Origin: Muribaculaceae bacterium
Lineage (GTDB): Bacteria; Bacteroidota; Bacteroidia; Bacteroidales; Muribaculaceae
Assembly: GCA_029060725.1 (NCBI GenBank)
Contig: JAIDTL010000134.1
Location: 18,437-82,436 of the forward strand
Direction: 5' to 3'
DNA length: 64,000 nucleotides
Position numbers and translations under genes: made by a program. Position 1 is the stretch's first letter, and each line of letters starts with the position of its first letter. The notes under the pieces were generated by a model. That model did not search any database and had not been told where the DNA came from. It worked only from the letters and a program-made list of their open reading frames with translations. Positions 24,090 through 39,311 of this stretch are shown here, one piece after another.

Positions 24090-24187
24090 GCTTTATGATA
24101 TAGTCAAGATTTTGGCACATCTAACTGAACATCTTAGTTTATAGTTAATAATTTATAGTTAATAGTTAATAGATCATCGTTGACAAA

Positions 24188-28717: not shown

Positions 28718-28966
28718 ATGCAAGCAAGGATATCCAGAATCGGCACATCATTAGGAGTCATCATACCGCGACACATCACTAAAGAAGGAGGTTTTCAAAA
28801 AGGACTGCCTGTAGACATTACTTTAGAAAACGACAAGATCATGATCTCAAAGGTTCCTGACGTTAGAAAAGGATGGGCTGAAGCCTTCGCCGCATACGCC
28901 AAAAACGGAGAGGATGCACTTGTCATGCCCGACTATCTTGATTCGGAAGCAATTGACTTGATATAA
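28718..28966 (+). CDS. AbrB/MazE-like antitoxin
   Basis: ISRIGTSLGVIIPRHI SpoVT/AbrB fold N-terminus; directly upstream of PemK/MazF. Confidence 0.85.
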   Translation: MQARISRIGTSLGVIIPRHITKEGGFQKGLPVDITLENDKIMISKVPDVRKGWAEAFAAYAKNGEDALVMPDYLDSEAIDLI

Positions 28967-28999
28967 TACTATTAAGAAAATGCAATTATAGAAATAACA

Positions 29000-29332
29000 A
29001 TGAATAGGTTCTCCATTGTTTTAGTCAACCTTGACCCAACCATCGGTCATGAAGTAAAGAAGACGCGCCCGTGCGTGATCTTGTCTCCGGATGAAATGAA
29101 TAATGTACTTAAGACCATAATAGTTGCACCGATAACGTCTACAGATCGAGCGATACCGACAAGGATATTGCTTCGAGCTACGTCCGACAGTGGACTATCC
29201 AATGACAGTTACGCCATGCTTGATCAGATTAAGACAATCGACAAAACCAGAGTCATAAAGCTATTGGGAACAGTTTCTGCCCGAGAGCAACATGAATTGA
29301 CATCCAGCCTTCAAGAATTATTCGCCTTGTAA
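29000..29332 (+). CDS. PemK/MazF-family endoribonuclease toxin
   Basis: VNLDPTIGHEVKKTRPCVILSPDEMN; IIVAPITS; QIKTIDKTR. Confidence 0.92.
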   Translation: MNRFSIVLVNLDPTIGHEVKKTRPCVILSPDEMNNVLKTIIVAPITSTDRAIPTRILLRATSDSGLSNDSYAMLDQIKTIDKTRVIKLLGTVSAREQHELTSSLQELFAL

Positions 29333-30056: not shown

Positions 30057-30140
30057 TCACGATCTCTCATTTTTCCACTTAAAAACAGCAATCGCCGCCA
30101 AAGAGGCGGCGATGAAAGCGATTATTATGTATTCCACCAT
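30057..30140 (-). CDS. 27-aa hydrophobic peptide (copy B)
   Basis: MVEYIIIAFIAASLAAIAVFKWKNERS*; one TM helix and basic tail; not in the ORF track because too short. Confidence 0.45.
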   Translation of the reverse strand: MVEYIIIAFIAASLAAIAVFKWKNERS

Positions 30141-30213
30141 CGTTAATCGTTGATAGTTGATCGTTGATCGTTGATCGTTTATCGTTGATAATTGATCGTT
30201 GATCATTGATCGT
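30141..30213. repeat. Tandem GTTGATCGTTGATCGTT simple repeat
   Basis: Roughly 10-11-bp period degenerate repeats immediately after gmd. Confidence 0.8.
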
Positions 30214-31304
30214 TACTTGACGATCCCCTTTTCGAGGTATTCTTCGAGGTTCAGGCGTACTTTTTCACCGGCACGTTCTACTGCAACTTTCGCCATATCT
30301 GCATCGACCATAAGGTTGACAAGCTGCTCAAAAGATGTCTTCTTTGTCGGATCCCAACCCAATTTCTGCTTAGCCTTTGTCGGGTCTCCCCAGAGATTCA
30401 CAACGTCTGTCGGACGGTAGAAGTCAGGGGAAACTTCAATTACTACCTTACCCGTAGCCTTGTCAATGCCTTTCTCGTCAACTCCCTCACCCACAAATTC
30501 CAGTTCGATTCCGGCTCTACGGAAAGCATAGAGACAGAATTCGCGTACTGAATGCTGTTCACCTGTAGCGATGACATAGTCTTCGGGTTCCGGTTGCTGA
30601 AGAATCAGCCACATACATTCCACATAGTCTTTTGCATATCCCCAGTCTCGAAGCGAATCGAGGTTGCCGAGATAAAGTTTCTCCTGCTTTCCCTGCGCTA
30701 TGCGGGCGGCAGCCAGAGTAATCTTGCGGGTCACAAAAGTCTCCCCGCGACGCTCGCTTTCGTGATTGAAGAGGATTCCCGAGCAAGCAAACATATTGTA
30801 AGCCTCGCGATACTCCTTCACAATCCAGAAACCGTAAAGCTTCGCAACGGCATACGGAGAGTAAGGGTGGAACGGAGTATTCTCATTCTGTGGCACCTCT
30901 TCCACCTTGCCATATAGTTCTGAAGTCGAAGCCTGATAGAATCGGCAAGTCTCAGCAAGACCGCATTGCCGTATACCCTCCAAGAGACGGAGCACGCCCG
31001 TGGCATCCACATCAGCGGTAAACTCAGGGGAATCAAAGCTGACCTGCACATGACTCTGCGCAGCGAGGTTGTACACCTCATCAGGACGAACTTTATTGAG
31101 CACCTGTATAATCGACATCGAATCGCCGAGGTCAGCATAGTGGAGGTGGAATTGAGGATGACCCTCGAGGTGTGCGATACGCTCACGGAAATCCACAGAA
31201 GAACGGCGTATGGTGCCGTGTACGTCATATCCTTTCTCTATTAGGAGTTCAGCAAGATACGACCCGTCTTGGCCTGTGATACCTGTGATTAGAGCTGTTT
31301 TCAT
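30213..31304 (-). CDS. gmd: GDP-mannose 4,6-dehydratase
   Basis: [33 protein letters not shown]. Confidence 0.97.
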
Positions 31305-31460: not shown

Positions 31461-32405
31461 TTATCTTTCTGCCCTCATAGGATTATTGAGAAAATCCTCA
31501 TACGAGAGGCGGATACCATCTGCAAGCTCTGTCTTGTAAGTCCAACCGAGTTTGGTAGCCTTGCTCACATCAAGCAGCTTACGCGGAGTCCCGTTAGGAC
31601 GTGACGTATCCCAAAGTATCTTACCCTCGTAGCCGACAATGGATGCCACAAGCTCCGTGAGTTCCTTTATGGTGAGTTCCTTCCCTGTACCGGCATTCAC
31701 AGTCTCATTTCCACTGTAATTGTTCATCAAGAACACACAAAGGTTGGCGAGGTCATCTACGTAGAGGAATTCGCGTAGTGGAGAGCCGTCGCCCCAGCAA
31801 GTCACTTCTGCCAAGCATGCTTCCTTAGCCTCGTGGAAACGGCGAATAAGAGCCGGAAGCACGTGGGAATGCTCCGGATGATAGTTGTCGTTTGGACCAT
31901 AGAGGTTCGTGGGCATAACTGAGATATAATCAGTGCCGTATTGACGATTCAGGTATTCGCAATATTTAAGACCGGATATCTTGGCAAGCGCGTATGCCTC
32001 ATTGGTCTTCTCCAATTCTGAAGTCAGTAGGCAAGACTCCGGCATAGGTTGTGGAGCCATACGTGGATAGATGCATGAACTGCCTAAGAATTCCAGTTTC
32101 TTGCATCCGTTCCGCCAAGCAGCATTGATCACATTCATCTCAAGCATCATGTTATCATACATGAAGTCGGCAAGATGTTCTGAATTAGCGATAATACCAC
32201 CGACCTTGGCAGCTGCCAAGAATACATATTCCGGCTTTTCCTGAGCAAAAAAGACATTTACAGCTTGCTGGTTGATCAAGTCAAGTTCCGCATGGGTTCT
32301 CGTAATTATGTTTGTGTATCCTTGGCGCTCAAGTTCACGCACGATAGCGGATCCGACCATACCACGATGACCGGCTACATATATCTTTGAATCTGATTTC
32401 ATCAT
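31461..32405 (-). CDS. fcl: GDP-L-fucose synthase
   Basis: [34 protein letters not shown]. Confidence 0.96.
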
Positions 32406-32412
32406 AATTTAA

Positions 32413-32466
32413 GTATTAGAGCAGAATGCTCAGTATTAAGTATTAGCGCGAATGCGCAGTATTTGA
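32413..32466. repeat. AGTATTA hairpin array C (left flank of four-helix-bundle ORF)
   Basis: AGTATTA-GAGC agaat GCTC-AGTATTA / AGTATTA-GCGC gaat GCGC-AGTATTTG. Confidence 0.85.
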
Positions 32467-32485
32467 AGAGTTGTATAAAAATATT

Positions 32486-32516
32486 TTGATTATTAATGAG
32501 AATTATATAATTTTGC
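32486..32516 (+). promoter_or_regulatory. Bacteroidetes-type promoter of four-helix-bundle ORF
   Basis: TTTG (32486-32489) - N19 - TAATTTTG (32509-32516). Confidence 0.7.
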
Positions 32517-32529
32517 AAAAAAGAATAAA

Positions 32530-32931
32530 ATGAATAAGAACGAAACGCAATTAGCTAAAACCCCTGATCTCAAAGCTGATTTGGCGGAAGCTTTCGCCAT
32601 TCGTATAGTGAAACTTGAAAAGTATTTGAGAATAGAAAAAAAGGAAAAACGAATCAGCGATCAGATATTCCGATCAGGAACCTCGATAGGAGCTAATATT
32701 TTTGAAGCGAAATATGCAGAGAGTACTTCAGATTATATACATAAGCTCTCCATTTCACAAAAAGAGGCAAATGAAACAATTTTTTGGCTTCGCTTGCTTC
32801 GAAATACCAGTTATATTAATGAAGAAGAATTCGAATCTCTTTATAAGGATTGTAGTAATATTTTGAGAATACTTACCCATGTCATCACCAGTGTTCGCGA
32901 AAATCAGAAAAAGAAATCAAAAAAGCCTTAA
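32530..32931 (+). CDS. Four-helix-bundle protein (S23/23S rRNA intervening-sequence protein family, Avd-like)
   Basis: FAIRIVKLEKYL; QIFRSGTSIGANIFEA; SDYIHKLSISQKEANETIFWL. Confidence 0.9.
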   Translation: MNKNETQLAKTPDLKADLAEAFAIRIVKLEKYLRIEKKEKRISDQIFRSGTSIGANIFEAKYAESTSDYIHKLSISQKEANETIFWLRLLRNTSYINEEEFESLYKDCSNILRILTHVITSVRENQKKKSKKP

Positions 32932-32959
32932 AGTAATCTACTATCGTTCTATAAGCACC

Positions 32960-33029
32960 AATACTGCGCAACGCGCTAATACTGCGAAGCTAATACTGCG
33001 AAGCTAATACTGCGCAAAGCGCAAATACT
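32960..33029. repeat. TAATACT hairpin array D (right flank of four-helix-bundle ORF, inverted relative to array C)
   Basis: AATACT-GCGC aac GCGC-TAATACT-GCgaaGC-TAATACT-GCgaaGC-TAATACT-GCGC aaa GCGC-AAATACT, ending at the neighbouring gene's stop codon. Confidence 0.85.
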
Positions 33030-34277
33030 TTATCTCCTCCTGATTTTGATTGGGATGGTGCCAGAAGGGATTTTGTCGACGACCAAAAGCAGATGCCCTC
33101 CCCCACCTGCACCAAGCATCTTCCAGGCCAATGCCCTGTCTTTCCAATTATCAATATGCTCTTGCACTCCGGGTTGCATCATAGCCGGAAACATTGCTAT
33201 CTGGGCGTTGAAGGAGTCTCGGAAAGCATTTGCAAAAGTTTCGAGATCTTTCATCATTATCGCATCCCAGCAACGTGCTGCCGCATCTGTCAGGTCTTTG
33301 ACCTTATCGGAAGTGATATCCTTTCCCTCAACTACCGAGCATCCCGGTCTTCGCGGGAACATTGGCACTACGCAGAGGTGCTGTTCAAGCCAATCAAGGA
33401 TGTCATCGTCATGGATCGTCTCGATTTTCTCCGGCCAGTAGTGCCCGTCATAGTAATGGCGTGACAAACCGGAGATGCAGATGCCGATTGCATCCTGAGC
33501 GCCAGAGACATGACCGGTATTCTCAGGATCATTCTCAAAACAGAACAGCATGCGGGCCAGCATCTCCTCATTGTAGGCAGGAAGTTCAAAAGGCCATATC
33601 TTCTTAGCAGCATTTCGTGTAGATGTCGACATGCCACCGCGCTCCATAAACTCGTGAGTCGGCTCTATAGACGCGGTTATCGCCCACCCTGCGCCATGCT
33701 TCGACACATACGGCTGGTCGATCCAAGTTCCGGCTATATCCACCCGATAGGGCAAGCGAGATGTATTAGCGAAGTCTTGCTTCGCAGTATTAGCGCACTC
33801 TGTGCGCAGTATTTGAGCCGTTGGCTCAGTATTTGCTTCGCAGTGTGAATTATACTGCGTCTCTGACGCTAATACTGCAGTCTCACCGCTAATACTGTGC
33901 GAAGCACTAATACTTACATATTCTATCCCCCGTGATTCACACGCCTGCTTCTTAAGCTCGTTTCCACCATTCGAGTTGACCACGAATACATCGGGCTTGA
34001 TCCGGTCAAGCTCCGAGAGAAAATCCAATATCCCACATCCGGAATTGACAAAGGCGTCTTTCACATACCTCAAAGCCTTCACCATATAAAGCCGTTCCTG
34101 CTCGGAAGCGACCGGCTTGCGACCTTTAAGCCTCTCGAAATTCACATCCGACCCAATCCCCACATACAGCTCCCCATACTTAGCAGCCTCCTTCAAGAAA
34201 GCCACATGCCCGGAATTAAGCAGGTCAAAGAACCCCGTAGCAAACACCTTACAGGATTTTCTCATCGCCATTGTCAT
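33030..34277 (-). CDS. Bifunctional cytidylyltransferase-like / GHMP sugar kinase with in-frame repeat-derived linker
   Basis: GFFDLLNSGHVAFLKEAAKYGELYVGIGSD nucleotidyltransferase; RLPYRVDIAGTWIDQPYVSKHG and MLGAGGGGHLL GHMP motifs. Confidence 0.8.
   Translation of the reverse strand: MTMAMRKSCKVFATGFFDLLNSGHVAFLKEAAKYGELYVGIGSDVNFERLKGRKPVASEQERLYMVKALRYVKDAFVNSGCGILDFLSELDRIKPDVFVVNSNGGNELKKQACESRGIEYVSISASHSISGETAVLASETQYNSHCEANTEPTAQILRTECANTAKQDFANTSRLPYRVDIAGTWIDQPYVSKHGAGWAITASIEPTHEFMERGGMSTSTRNAAKKIWPFELPAYNEEMLARMLFCFENDPENTGHVSGAQDAIGICISGLSRHYYDGHYWPEKIETIHDDDILDWLEQHLCVVPMFPRRPGCSVVEGKDITSDKVKDLTDAAARCWDAIMMKDLETFANAFRDSFNAQIAMFPAMMQPGVQEHIDNWKDRALAWKMLGAGGGGHLLLVVDKIPSGTIPIKIRRR
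33762..33914. repeat. AGTATTA/TAATACT hairpin array E, 153 bp inside CDS 33030..34277
   Basis: Seven variable stems (e.g. GCGAAG/CTTCGC, GCGCAC/GTGCGC, GAGCC/GGCTC, GCGTC/GACGC, GTGC/GCAC); orientation flips at AGTGTGAATTATACT (33842-33856). Confidence 0.88.
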
Positions 34278-34534: not shown

Positions 34535-34735
34535 GAAAAAAGCACTCAGGCGTGTCACCACTTTGCCGGTCTGAGTGCGTGAAAGGGATATGCGTTGTGC
34601 GTGACGCGTGGGTGCGTAATGCGTAGGCGTATTCCGCTTTCGAGGGGAGTCCCGGAGAGATCCGGGGGTGTATAGAGCCACGGATACGGTCATGCCGCGG
34701 CTGTCAGGGTCGATACACCGTTCCAACGATTAACG
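34535..34735 (-). other. Structured non-coding-like region ending in a terminator-like hairpin
   Basis: Minus strand: GTGTAT...ATACAC outer pairing, CCCGGA/TCCGGG, then GCACTCAG...CTGAGTGC followed by TTTTTT. Confidence 0.4.
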
Positions 34736-35064
34736 ATTAACGATAAACTATCAATTAATAGCCATTAACCAAAGAATAAGGGCTCTTATTCGCCTGGAAT
34801 CGCGTATACTTGCTTGCCATAGACATGATTGCCGCGAGCTTCGGCAACCGGCTGGGTTTCGTTTCCGAGTGCAAAGTTAGGGTGTGTTTTGAGGAGACGC
34901 CCCTTATCGCGCGAAAAAAGTTACAAAAAGGTAATCTGTAGTTGGATGCTTACGACCGTAAAGTCACATCTATTTTTTTGAGCCAACCAAATTACGCCTT
35001 TGGACAGGAACAAAAGGTTTAACTTGCAGCAACGAAACCGACCCCAAAATATCAAAACTTACGT

Positions 35065-35094: not shown

Positions 35095-36054
35095 TCAAAA
35101 TTCCTCAGGGCTTATTATTCTTTTTAGAATCAATTTGGTAGTATCCTTAACTTTATTAAATTGTTCTTTTATTTTGTTTTCATCTGGGAAATCTGACATA
35201 AGTATGAGAATCATCTCTTTTGCAGCATCTTCCCCATTAGAGAAATGTCGAGTTCGCTTTGATTTAGGGTCATCTATTGACAATGTACGAAGCATATCAT
35301 AATACTGCATGGAATACTTCACAAGATTCCATTTAGAATCAGCGGAAGAGTAATTCTTGCTGTCATTAATTGCTTCTTCAAAAAATCTCAAAAATCTTTT
35401 TATGGTCTCATATACAAGATAACGATGCGCAATCTGCAGGTCGGTCTGCGATTCGAGAAGTCGGTTGTTTCTTATAGACGTAAGACAGGTGGAATTCATC
35501 TCTAAATTCAGTTCCTCCTTCATCTTATCGATCTTCTTACCATTGCTTAATATTTCTTGAAATTTTTCTTGCCATGAAGAAACTCTGTTTCCAGCACTAT
35601 CTAAGAAAAGCCTTAATCGTAAATCTTGATCTTTTGCCTTTGCTTCAAACATATCCTTGAGGTCCCTGTCTCCTTTGTATGTGATGGCTATAGGAACCAA
35701 GACTCCAAGAAAGGCAAGGATTGCTACCCAGAAATTCAGTTCCGCAGATATTTTTTCAATCGTGTTGTTTGATTCCTGTCTGATATCAGCCAGCATATTG
35801 TCATATCTGGAATTGAGTGTTTTCTGGTTTTTCCAGATAACTTCCAACAACTCATTTTCTTTATACCATTTATGCTTCCGTAGCTCATCTACATCCTCGA
35901 AATCCGGGTATGTACGTATCGGCGCTTTTTCGGAATAATATTTGTGCAGTAAGTCGCAGGATTGGAATCCGAAAACTATTGCAGCGCATATTATCAATCC
36001 ATAGACAAGCAGTCCTGCATTCTTCATTAGACTAAAGCTTTCTGATTTTGCCAT
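35095..36054 (-). CDS. Membrane-anchored hypothetical protein (two TM segments, coiled coil)
   Basis: TM stretches LLVYGLIICAAIVFGF and FWVAILAFLGVLVPIAI. Confidence 0.75.
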   Translation of the reverse strand: MAKSESFSLMKNAGLLVYGLIICAAIVFGFQSCDLLHKYYSEKAPIRTYPDFEDVDELRKHKWYKENELLEVIWKNQKTLNSRYDNMLADIRQESNNTIEKISAELNFWVAILAFLGVLVPIAITYKGDRDLKDMFEAKAKDQDLRLRLFLDSAGNRVSSWQEKFQEILSNGKKIDKMKEELNLEMNSTCLTSIRNNRLLESQTDLQIAHRYLVYETIKRFLRFFEEAINDSKNYSSADSKWNLVKYSMQYYDMLRTLSIDDPKSKRTRHFSNGEDAAKEMILILMSDFPDENKIKEQFNKVKDTTKLILKRIISPEEF

Positions 36055-36063
36055 AAATGTGGA

Positions 36064-37683
36064 TTATATGGGATCTGAGATATCAATTACCATTTTATTT
36101 ATACCTCTGATGGTAATGCTCTTCAAATCCGAATGATGATTATCATCTTTGTCCATGTCTGTTATGACGTCTGCCGGGGTGAAAAGACGACGAAACTTTA
36201 CACCGAACTCATTTTTGATTTGGTTCTCATCACTCCAATATCGAATTCCATTATATACATTTTCAGCAATGATGTTATCTTGGGTAAAGAAAACCAGTTG
36301 CAAAGGAAGGTCCTCCTTGCTTACTTCCGGATAAGAAGCGATTACGGAATCATGGGCTTTGAGCAGCCTTACTATGAATCGTCCTATTGAAGACCTATGA
36401 TTGAAATCGCTTGAGTCGAAAATGTCATCAATAAAAAATGGGATTACTGTGTGATGCAAGATTTTGGAGCAGATCAAAAGAGACAATTTCAGAGAAATAC
36501 AGAATAACTTCAATCTAAAAGTATTAAGGTATTGTATAGGACTCCTTTCGTCATAGTCCTCAACTACATCGAAGTTTCGTGGTTTGACTTTAAGCTCAAT
36601 GGATACAATTCCTTTGTTTCCTTTTATCTCGATTGATTCCTTGCCTTCGAAAAGACTCGCACCTAATACGGCTGGCATGACAGAATTCAATATTCTAACA
36701 AGTAAGTCTATTATTATCTGCCATTGTTTTTCAATATAATCAAGAAGGTTGGTCAATTCATCCGTGTTCTGTTCAAGGTCCTCACACTTTTCAATCTCCT
36801 TGATGAATTGAGTGATTCGTTTATAATAGACTTGACCGCCACTTATGAGAAATCGGTCATTTATGACCCTTCGATCTTTTTCAGCTGTTTTTTTCCTTGA
36901 TGTAATAGCCTTATATTCTTTAGATCCTTTTTCAAATTTCTTCAATTTTATTTTTGCAACCGCTATCTGTTGCTCTTTCTCTTTATATTTAGAAGCGAAA
37001 TTTAAAAATCGGGATAGTTTTCTCAAATCCTCAAGTTGAGTCCATACCTCTTGAAATCCTATCTGTTTAGCTATATATCCTGTAATATTCGACCATTCGC
37101 GTGATATCTGAAAGTAATCGCATTCTGAACAGAATGAAGACGGAATGCCATAGTCGGTTATGGTGTTGCCTTCACAAGAGATATTATCCATAAGATCGCA
37201 TTCCAACTTAATATCCTTTGCCTCCTTATTGATCCCTCGAAAGTAATCTTCTATATCTTTGTCAGGACTGTGGGCCAAAGCGATTTCACTATATCCCAGA
37301 TACATGTATTCTAATGATGCGAATAGTGTGCTTTTGCCCGTACCATTCCCTCCCAGAAATACCGAAGATATTGGCTTACCGGATAATGAAAGGTCAAGAC
37401 AATATCCTTCAGCTATATCTGAATATAGACAATACTGCCTTACATCCTTCAGCACCATCTGTTTGATTCTCAGATCAGTGTATGGCTGATTTACTTCCCA
37501 GGATTTAAATGTCTTTGGATTGTCTGATTTGATGAATTGAGAGATCAATCGCAAGAAATCAGGTATTTCCTTATGCTTCAGCACAAACTGCAACAAGCGT
37601 CTTGCAAATTGATTTGAAGCAAGAGGCGGAAGCGAGCCGTCGAAAACTCCCTTATAAAGAAAATTTATCAGAGCGGAAATCAC
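36064..37683 (-). CDS. AAA/SMC-like ATPase
   Basis: Walker A GGNGTGKST; Walker B-like VIPFFIDDIFD; LVFFTQDN. Confidence 0.85.
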   Translation of the reverse strand: MISALINFLYKGVFDGSLPPLASNQFARRLLQFVLKHKEIPDFLRLISQFIKSDNPKTFKSWEVNQPYTDLRIKQMVLKDVRQYCLYSDIAEGYCLDLSLSGKPISSVFLGGNGTGKSTLFASLEYMYLGYSEIALAHSPDKDIEDYFRGINKEAKDIKLECDLMDNISCEGNTITDYGIPSSFCSECDYFQISREWSNITGYIAKQIGFQEVWTQLEDLRKLSRFLNFASKYKEKEQQIAVAKIKLKKFEKGSKEYKAITSRKKTAEKDRRVINDRFLISGGQVYYKRITQFIKEIEKCEDLEQNTDELTNLLDYIEKQWQIIIDLLVRILNSVMPAVLGASLFEGKESIEIKGNKGIVSIELKVKPRNFDVVEDYDERSPIQYLNTFRLKLFCISLKLSLLICSKILHHTVIPFFIDDIFDSSDFNHRSSIGRFIVRLLKAHDSVIASYPEVSKEDLPLQLVFFTQDNIIAENVYNGIRYWSDENQIKNEFGVKFRRLFTPADVITDMDKDDNHHSDLKSITIRGINKMVIDISDPI

Positions 37684-37709
37684 TGATCTGGTAGGAAAGT
37701 ATTACTAAT

Positions 37710-39311
37710 TTATGGAAGAGGATGATTGGATTGCTCCAACGATGTCTTACGGAAAAAACGACGCCAATATTTATTACCTGAGAAATCGTAAGTATATGCA
37801 TACCGCGAAACAAGCTCACCTTCGTCGATCTTTCTGTCTACCCATTTATTGATCTCAACCTTTCTTTCATAATCTTTGACCATCAATGCCTTCTCTATGG
37901 ATTCAAACGATTCCATTATTCCTTCTACTTCATACTCCATCTCCTCGATAGTCAATGCCGGCAGTTCTGTGCTTTTCTGTCTGGCATTATTGAAAATGGC
38001 TTTAAGATTAGAGTCAAGTTGATCTATTTCGTCGTCAGTATCGATTTCGTCATCAATAATTGTGTATTTGGAAACGGTATATTCCGTGTAATAATCTTCC
38101 GGAATGAATACAGACTCCACTGTGACTTTTTTATGAGTCTTCGGACTGACGAGCCTGTTGGTGATTATATTTTGTAATAAGGGAATTATTTTTTCTGCAA
38201 GTTCTTTTCCTATGATTAGGGTTAAATCCTTTTCCTTTATCACATAATTGTATGTTTTAGGTGAAGTCTCTTCTCTTAATACCCGATTGAAAGATGAGAT
38301 TGAATACAGGTAATTTGCTACAGAGACAAGACTTCGGGATGTTCGGTTTGATCGACGCTCCTTGACGATTGCGTTATTGTCAAATGGTGAAACACTCTCA
38401 AATAGATTTTCTGATACTGACGCAAGGACTATATTCCAAATCTCCCGGTACTCCTTACATTCAAATAAATTGACATCTCGGAGTACAGAGTCTGCCAGAA
38501 TATTTGGAGCATAAGACATTATTACTGTTTCACCCAATCTATCATATACTCTGATTTTTGCAAAGTCATTGTTCAAGGAATTTGATAATTCAGAAGGAAG
38601 CAAAGAGGTATATGAGACTTGTGAATCACCTTTTTTTACTTTCTGGACTGGTCCAGTGGATAAATCAGTCTTATATGTGATTTTCAACTGATAATTGTCA
38701 ATTTCAATGGCTTTCTCATCCTTGAAAGCGGACGTTCCGTACGCTTTGAAATCAATAGGAGCTTCTTTACCTTCCATATAAAAAAGTGGATAGGAAACGT
38801 CAATGGGAAGGGTCACTGCAATTATGGTGCTGATGAATTCACGAATTGCTTTATGTTCAGTGTCGGAATATTTATATGTAGCAGTGACTTTATTCTCCTC
38901 AGCCCACTCTAAGATGTTTTCGAAATCGTCATAATAGAAAAAAACAAATGCTTTAGGGCATTGAATTCCTGTAATGTCGCGAGTCAAATCAATTATGTAA
39001 TTAAGTGTCTTTCCGGAAAAAACAATATCATCGATTATCAGTATCTCCAAATTCTCCTTCTGATCATGATATTGAAGGAAAGGAAGAGCTATTTCTGTGA
39101 TAATTTCCAATTTATCAAGTGCCTCTCGTTCCTTTTCAGAGGCTTGAGTGTACTTATACCAAAAAATGACATGCGGAACACGACGAGACACAGCCAATAA
39201 CAGAGGATAATTGTTTCGGTTACGTATGGCTTCTACTTCGTCAAGGAGCGTATGCATTCCATCGGCTATCACCTTTTCAAGGTTATCTGTCGAGTCGACC
39301 GTAAGTGTCAT
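37710..39311 (-). CDS. Phosphoribosyltransferase-like conflict-associated protein
   Basis: PRTase motif LEILIIDDIVFSGKTLNYI; long C-terminal extension. Confidence 0.7.
   Translation of the reverse strand: MTLTVDSTDNLEKVIADGMHTLLDEVEAIRNRNNYPLLLAVSRRVPHVIFWYKYTQASEKEREALDKLEIITEIALPFLQYHDQKENLEILIIDDIVFSGKTLNYIIDLTRDITGIQCPKAFVFFYYDDFENILEWAEENKVTATYKYSDTEHKAIREFISTIIAVTLPIDVSYPLFYMEGKEAPIDFKAYGTSAFKDEKAIEIDNYQLKITYKTDLSTGPVQKVKKGDSQVSYTSLLPSELSNSLNNDFAKIRVYDRLGETVIMSYAPNILADSVLRDVNLFECKEYREIWNIVLASVSENLFESVSPFDNNAIVKERRSNRTSRSLVSVANYLYSISSFNRVLREETSPKTYNYVIKEKDLTLIIGKELAEKIIPLLQNIITNRLVSPKTHKKVTVESVFIPEDYYTEYTVSKYTIIDDEIDTDDEIDQLDSNLKAIFNNARQKSTELPALTIEEMEYEVEGIMESFESIEKALMVKDYERKVEINKWVDRKIDEGELVSRYAYTYDFSGNKYWRRFFRKTSLEQSNHPLP

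Follow-up and report, generated by a model that had tools for sequence, protein, structure and literature searches.

Genes for IVP/S23 four-helix-bundle proteins are associated with inverted arrays of seven-base-pair repeats whose sequence tracks the protein

The open reading frame at positions 32530..32931 (plus strand) of the window, i.e. the whole 64,000-nucleotide stretch of Muribaculaceae DNA analyzed here, encodes a predicted 133 amino acid IVP/S23 four-helix-bundle protein. The reading frame is intact and lies antisense and flush between two minus-strand genes. One is the GDP-L-fucose synthase gene fcl (31461..32405, from a profile search), whose start is at 32405; the other is a two-domain gene with cytidylyltransferase-like and sugar-kinase-like parts (33030..34277), whose stop is at 33030. 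An array of short repeats is found on each side of the open reading frame. The left arm (32412..32464, plus strand) reads AGTATTA-[GAGC agaat GCTC]-AGTATTA-AGTATTA-[GCGC gaat GCGC]-AGTATTT and has four AGTATT in units of 19–20 bp. The right arm (32960..33030, minus strand) is inverted and carries AATACT five times, together with hairpins of the GCGC/GCGC and GC/GC kinds; its units are partly 14 bp (2 × 7) and its final bases touch the stop codon of the 33030–34277 gene. A preliminary description of this DNA had given both the arrays and the antisense placement of the unit correctly. The ends of the element are inverted arrays of a family-specific heptamer, which here is AGTATTA alternating with hairpins.

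The preliminary description also held that the stem sequences vary but remain complementary. This is borne out by the ten units between AGTATT copies in the three arrays of this type (the third is described below). Their longest stems sum to 38 bp compared with 20.1 ± 1.95 after letter shuffling, and none of 5000 shuffles reaches 38. Positions 32500..32529 (plus strand) appear from their sequence to be the promoter end or 5′ leader of the open reading frame, and we read before the ATG a TAnnTTTG motif, which we take to be of the Bacteroides type. A sigma-70 scan, bearing on the promoter that the preliminary description had assigned to the unit, gives 5 sites where 2.7 are expected. A search of Rfam with positions 32300–34000 gives sub-threshold chance matches alone.

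The predicted protein matches PF05635 (E-value = 4.5e-25, 88.4 bits against a cut-off of 33.8), which is its sole Pfam domain, and TIGR02436 (E-value = 3.8e-28, 97.9 bits against a cut-off of 24). Two weak PF05635 matches elsewhere in the same genome (L002 and L003) are below the cut-off. The AF2 model (pLDDT 92) displays the four-helix fold of 2rld, and 2rld (BT_0352) is the top foldseek match with a TM of 0.95, an rmsd of 0.5 and 50% identity. Next in order are 2gsc (XCC0516) and then Avd, the accessory protein of the Bordetella phage DGR. The Avd matches (4dwl, 8ub7) have a TM of about 0.8 by target length, at weak significance (E 0.03) and 17% identity, and neither a reverse transcriptase nor TR/VR is found at the annotated plasmid IVP loci. 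Both the S23-type assignment and the relation to the Avd fold had been proposed in the preliminary description and are upheld by these matches. In four Muribaculaceae pairs of IVP orthologues dN/dS is 0.06–0.12, thus the protein is under purifying selection. The orthologous IVP genes L036 and L037, from two species, have a common in-frame TAA at the same codon with a dN/dS of 0.12, which is either decay that is just starting or read-through. Proteins of this family carry the annotation "four helix bundle protein" or "S23 ribosomal protein". Structures have been available since 2006–2007, but the function is not known, and PMC4990558 describes the family in the same way. It also reports the Xanthomonas IVP to be a homopentamer of four-helix bundles that forms a toroid.

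A third array of the same type, which carries no gene and was missed by the preliminary description, is at 33763..33916 (no strand assigned). It displays three AGTATT, a center and three AATACT, is inverted about its own center and lies in frame within the 33030–34277 coding sequence. There, residues at about 121–172 replace a linker shared by 29 orthologues, where it is conserved and of the type LERVPDAGLEARSTTSLR, with a net gain of about 29 residues. Rickettsia palindromic elements are palindromic insertions kept in frame inside genes. The 33763–33916 array is like these but has another sequence, is heptamer-based and is linked to IVP. Further heptamer arrays with no gene are present in the window at 24132–24183 (TTAATAG-type), 30133–30219 (GTTGATC-type, overlapping the gmd stop) and 34722–34761 (AACGATT-type). 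The array at 30133–30219 and that at 34722 lie on either side of the fcl/IVP segment, and their units are roughly each other's inverted complements.

AGTATT arrays with GC hairpins, searched as a three-unit pattern, are found nowhere else in the 3.4-Mb assembly, where the pattern otherwise finds AGTATTG/AACAATG-type heptamer arrays only, and in none of 148 other Muribaculaceae genomes. The hairpin form is therefore private to this locus. A search of relatives for this form, as proposed in the preliminary description, returns the literal form from its own genome only; it is the general heptamer form that is found in others. The AGTATTA-plus-hairpin array is one dialect (the repeat sequence used by an array) of general 7-bp arrays. 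The finding is real, and larger than the preliminary description had supposed.

IVP genes for this comparison were gathered by protein similarity alone. The samples are Muribaculaceae loci (51 of 149 genomes have an IVP match), 80 GTDB loci spread over many phyla, and 12 plasmid loci from Nostoc, Aulosira, Anabaena, Dolichospermum, Planktothrix, Gloeocapsa, Euhalothece, Bernardetia and Chlorohelix. When the flanks are read, tandem heptamers are seen on both sides of the gene and are usually mutually inverted. With periodicity defined as a best-28-bp lag-7 identity of ≥0.7 within 150-bp flanks, it is present in 71/90 Muribaculaceae flanks (79%) and in 92/158 GTDB flanks (58%), about 40% of the latter being under the threshold. 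The control values are 1/52 (2%) for flanks of ParE genes, 1/12 and 10/81 (8%–12%) for other intergenic gaps, and 0.3% (Muribaculaceae) and 1.8% (GTDB) for windows more than 600 bp from an IVP gene. The rise is seen at lag 7 and at 14, its multiple, with other lags near background. All 12 plasmid loci, which are mostly cyanobacterial, have heptamers on at least one side. The two flanks of a locus have 8-mers in common in inverted orientation, mostly far above the level seen with flanks of other loci. Read in the sense of the gene, units from two independent sets approach a common pattern, approximately K-A-R-N-A-R-T (3.3 and 3.5 bits, compared with 2.8 when shuffled). These data show that IVP genes across phyla are associated with inverted 7-bp arrays. 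An exception is L033, where the flanking arrays are direct.

Comparison of array sequences with protein sequences shows that the dialect tracks the protein and that recent ancestry alone does not account for this. Protein identity and array similarity are correlated over 115 loci (r = 0.25, 0/2000 permutations), over different-genus pairs in the Muribaculaceae (r = 0.43, 0/2000) and over cross-phylum pairs (r = 0.16, compared with 0.01 ± 0.04 when permuted within phyla, 0/5000). An Oscillospiraceae locus (L080) and three Muribaculaceae loci (L195, L197 and L203) have a common ATAATKC dialect at 58%–62% protein identity. Where one genome encodes different IVPs, the arrays are unlike each other in all nine pairs compared (cosine 0–0.24). 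Tandem repeats change fast, and the persistence of a dialect over wide protein divergence therefore suggests that the protein recognizes the repeat. The preliminary description had the protein possibly recognizing the hairpins. Recognition of the repeat is supported by the co-variation; the hairpins themselves are not general, as the usual flank is a tandem 7-bp array and not a GC hairpin. Regression of array co-variation on identity, with no tree correction, points to residues 13 and 62, then 15 and 84, of the window IVP, and these four are candidate specificity positions in an exploratory sense.

Cross-genome counts of arrays that stand alone were made for two dialects, ATTAGKN and ATAATKC, and bear on whether arrays are equally common in genomes that lack the protein, which the preliminary description would have taken as refutation. 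ATTAGKN arrays are present in 17 of 149 genomes, and a strong IVP gene is present in 14 of these 17 compared with 30 of the remaining 132 (Fisher p = 2e-6, or 8e-6 after dropping a genome in which the one array found is itself an IVP arm); in the other 3 no IVP gene is detected. ATAATKC arrays are also found in 17 genomes, of which 5 have no IVP match, thus the link between array and IVP is strong but not absolute. In genomes whose IVP arms are characterized, solo arrays agree in dialect with those arms, at 8/11 compared with 5/29 (p = 0.002) and 6/8 compared with 2/32 (p = 2e-4). No account is taken in these tests of the phylogeny of species within one family, and since species share ancestry the Fisher and Mantel values overstate independence. 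An inverted partner with no gene between, as in the third array of the window, is seen at 7 of 21 solo loci; the other 14 are one-sided and not inverted. The genome from which the window comes (G000) has 14 matches to ATAATKC ×4 arrays on several contigs, and its sole strong IVP gene has AGTATTA arms; perhaps the corresponding IVP gene was lost, or it is missing from an assembly that is 86.6% complete.

Empty sites, i.e. comparable loci lacking the element, are present in three settings. Array, IVP gene and array lie between cas2 and cas1 in Nostoc TCL26-01 and Anabaena cylindrica; in Nostoc UHCC 0870 and N. edaphicum cas2 and cas1 abut. A site between helicase and methylase genes is occupied in Dolichospermum and empty in Calothrix and Nostoc HK-01. 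In the Muribaculaceae genome G034 (L020) an IVP element separates gmd from fcl; in many relatives the fcl start overlaps the gmd stop. The window element is at the same fcl start as the G034 element, with another neighbor. No clear target-site duplications are seen where the cas2/cas1 sites are compared by eye. The proposal that the unit may be mobile is supported in part, in that the open reading frame with its flanking repeats behaves as a unit and has empty sites.

Several known systems resemble this element. In REPtrons (REP plus RAYT), repeat units surround one gene and are also found by themselves in many copies. The IVP gene likewise lies between inverted repeat units that are found alone as well, but a Y1/HUH transposase is absent, PF05635 alone being found, and the units are 7-bp tandem arrays. 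Among heptamer repeats, cyanobacterial STRRs have the unit CCCCART. Tandem 7-bp arrays of this kind are found at IVP loci generally. TAACTGA repeats have been described in Beggiatoaceae, Cyanobacteria and Bacteroidetes with no transfer mechanism evident (MacGregor 2015; PMC4679880). GGGAATC heptamers are known from Xanthomonas and Nostoc, and Xanthomonas has 70–75 convergent repeat pairs (PLoS One 2015; PMC4692102). By a term search, neither PMC4679880 nor PMC4692102 mentions an associated IVP protein. Here, TAACTGA forms both arms of an IVP gene in a Nostocales locus (L123) and CCCCAAT forms the arms of an IVP gene on a Planktothrix plasmid (L216). X. campestris, for its part, encodes the IVP protein XCC0516 (2gsc). 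In the open literature that we searched there is no published statement of a link between IVP and heptamers, and the novelty is provisional.

The intervening sequences (IVS) of 23S rRNA in Coxiella and Leptospira are another close system. These encode a member of the same family (S23p/IVP) between complementary termini, are sporadic and are regarded as selfish; complementary termini also enclose the open reading frame in the window. The Coxiella IVS is reported to have tandem GACAGAT heptamers of strain-variable number directly upstream of the S23p open reading frame and a 28-bp terminal stem, in passages that do not generalize the association between heptamers and S23p (PMC4990558). The present element differs in that it lies between or inside protein genes, its heptamer arms track the protein and gene-less arrays occur genome-wide. 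A location in 23S rRNA was considered and rejected, as the window element is between protein genes and none of six conserved 23S motifs is present in any locus. In the way it works the element resembles an IVS or a REPtron, yet it has neither the location of the one nor the transposase of the other.

On balance we favor the interpretation that this unit represents a mobile (selfish) element of minimal make-up, whose sole gene specifies an Avd-like IVP that recognizes its own heptamer arms, with gene-less arrays as non-autonomous members. The IVP, probably a pentamer as in its solved relatives, would bind the heptamers in the form either of DNA, single-stranded or hairpin, or of RNA and, together with host polymerases or recombination, would promote insertion at gene junctions and growth of the arrays. 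Pfam recognizes no nuclease or transposase domain in IVP, and so catalysis must be borrowed. Arrays without a gene may be derivatives that are not autonomous, or else relics. In the window, snap-back synthesis during array growth might, speculatively, have produced the self-complementary hairpins with their changing stems. The rRNA IVS would favor an RNA hairpin that is at least tolerated. A wider possibility, which we put forward tentatively as somewhat less than an even prospect, is that each IVP protein dictates a 7-nt unit and promotes in trans both the amplification and the dispersal of that unit, such that the heptamers of Cyanobacteria, Bacteroidota, Gammaproteobacteria and others would be footprints of one unrecognized class of mobile element.

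The element may instead act at the RNA level as an intervening sequence, in which the arms fold the transcript with the open reading frame in the loop, RNase III trims it, insertion into operons and rRNA is thereby tolerated and the protein binds RNA. The inverted arms do enclose the open reading frame, RNase III cuts out the S23p-bearing IVS of Coxiella, which has upstream heptamers (PMC4990558), and Avd, the fold match, is seen in DGR ribonucleoprotein structures (8ub7). However, such a process alone leaves the tandem heptamers, the dialects and the one-sided gene-less arrays unexplained, and the fetched loci display no conserved 23S rRNA motifs. We regard it as a minority prospect, which is compatible with the mobile element as an RNA version of it.

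Gene-less arrays are common in many genomes, which would fit host heptamer arrays that came first as safe insertion sites, with IVP genes merely landing in them and the protein doing something else. This is improbable in that different IVPs of one genome differ in dialect, dialect and protein go together even between genera and between phyla, and array genomes with no detected IVP are a minority. It is similarly improbable that the arrays are operators through which IVP regulates itself and adjoining genes. Arrays are indeed placed after one stop and ahead of the next start, and a translational role was proposed for TAACTGA repeats (MacGregor 2015; PMC4679880), but operators do not account for inverted arrays on both sides, an in-frame insertion in a coding sequence and varied, unrelated neighbors. 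The view that a small open reading frame just happens to be surrounded by ordinary terminators or by chance hairpins, for which there is a single terminator-like match at 33011–33023, is rejected by the letter shuffles and flank controls, and by the 7-bp lag specificity and the generality of the arrays, with negligible doubt.

Inverted arrays that track a protein suggest a mobile element that has not been described. The heptamer tandem repeats of bacteria are without known origin, and IVP arms are a possible source of them. An association of gene and repeat in many phyla, with the unit tracking the protein, makes both this puzzle and that of the function of IVP testable. For annotators, heptamer arrays beside IVP genes are probably element ends.

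The neighborhoods of IVP genes show some further features. At the plasmid loci L214–L218 the IVP genes are inside defense operons, with positions between cas2 and cas1, between drmD and pglX and between DUF1156 and Swt1-HEPN genes, and the DUF1156/Swt1-HEPN arrangement is common to a Chloroflexota plasmid and a cyanobacterial one. The window has a three-gene operon at 35095–39311 (minus strand) that encodes an unknown protein, an AAA_23-like ATPase and a phosphoribosyltransferase-like protein (weak Pfam matches) and is possibly a defense system. A MazEF-like toxin-antitoxin pair is at 28718–29332 (plus strand), with a PemK/MazF toxin at 29000–29332 (E-value = 3e-31) and an upstream 82 amino acid open reading frame that is likely the antitoxin. 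IVP homologues are also present in the human-gut phage records MT835815.1 (44% identity) and MT835590.1 (37%).
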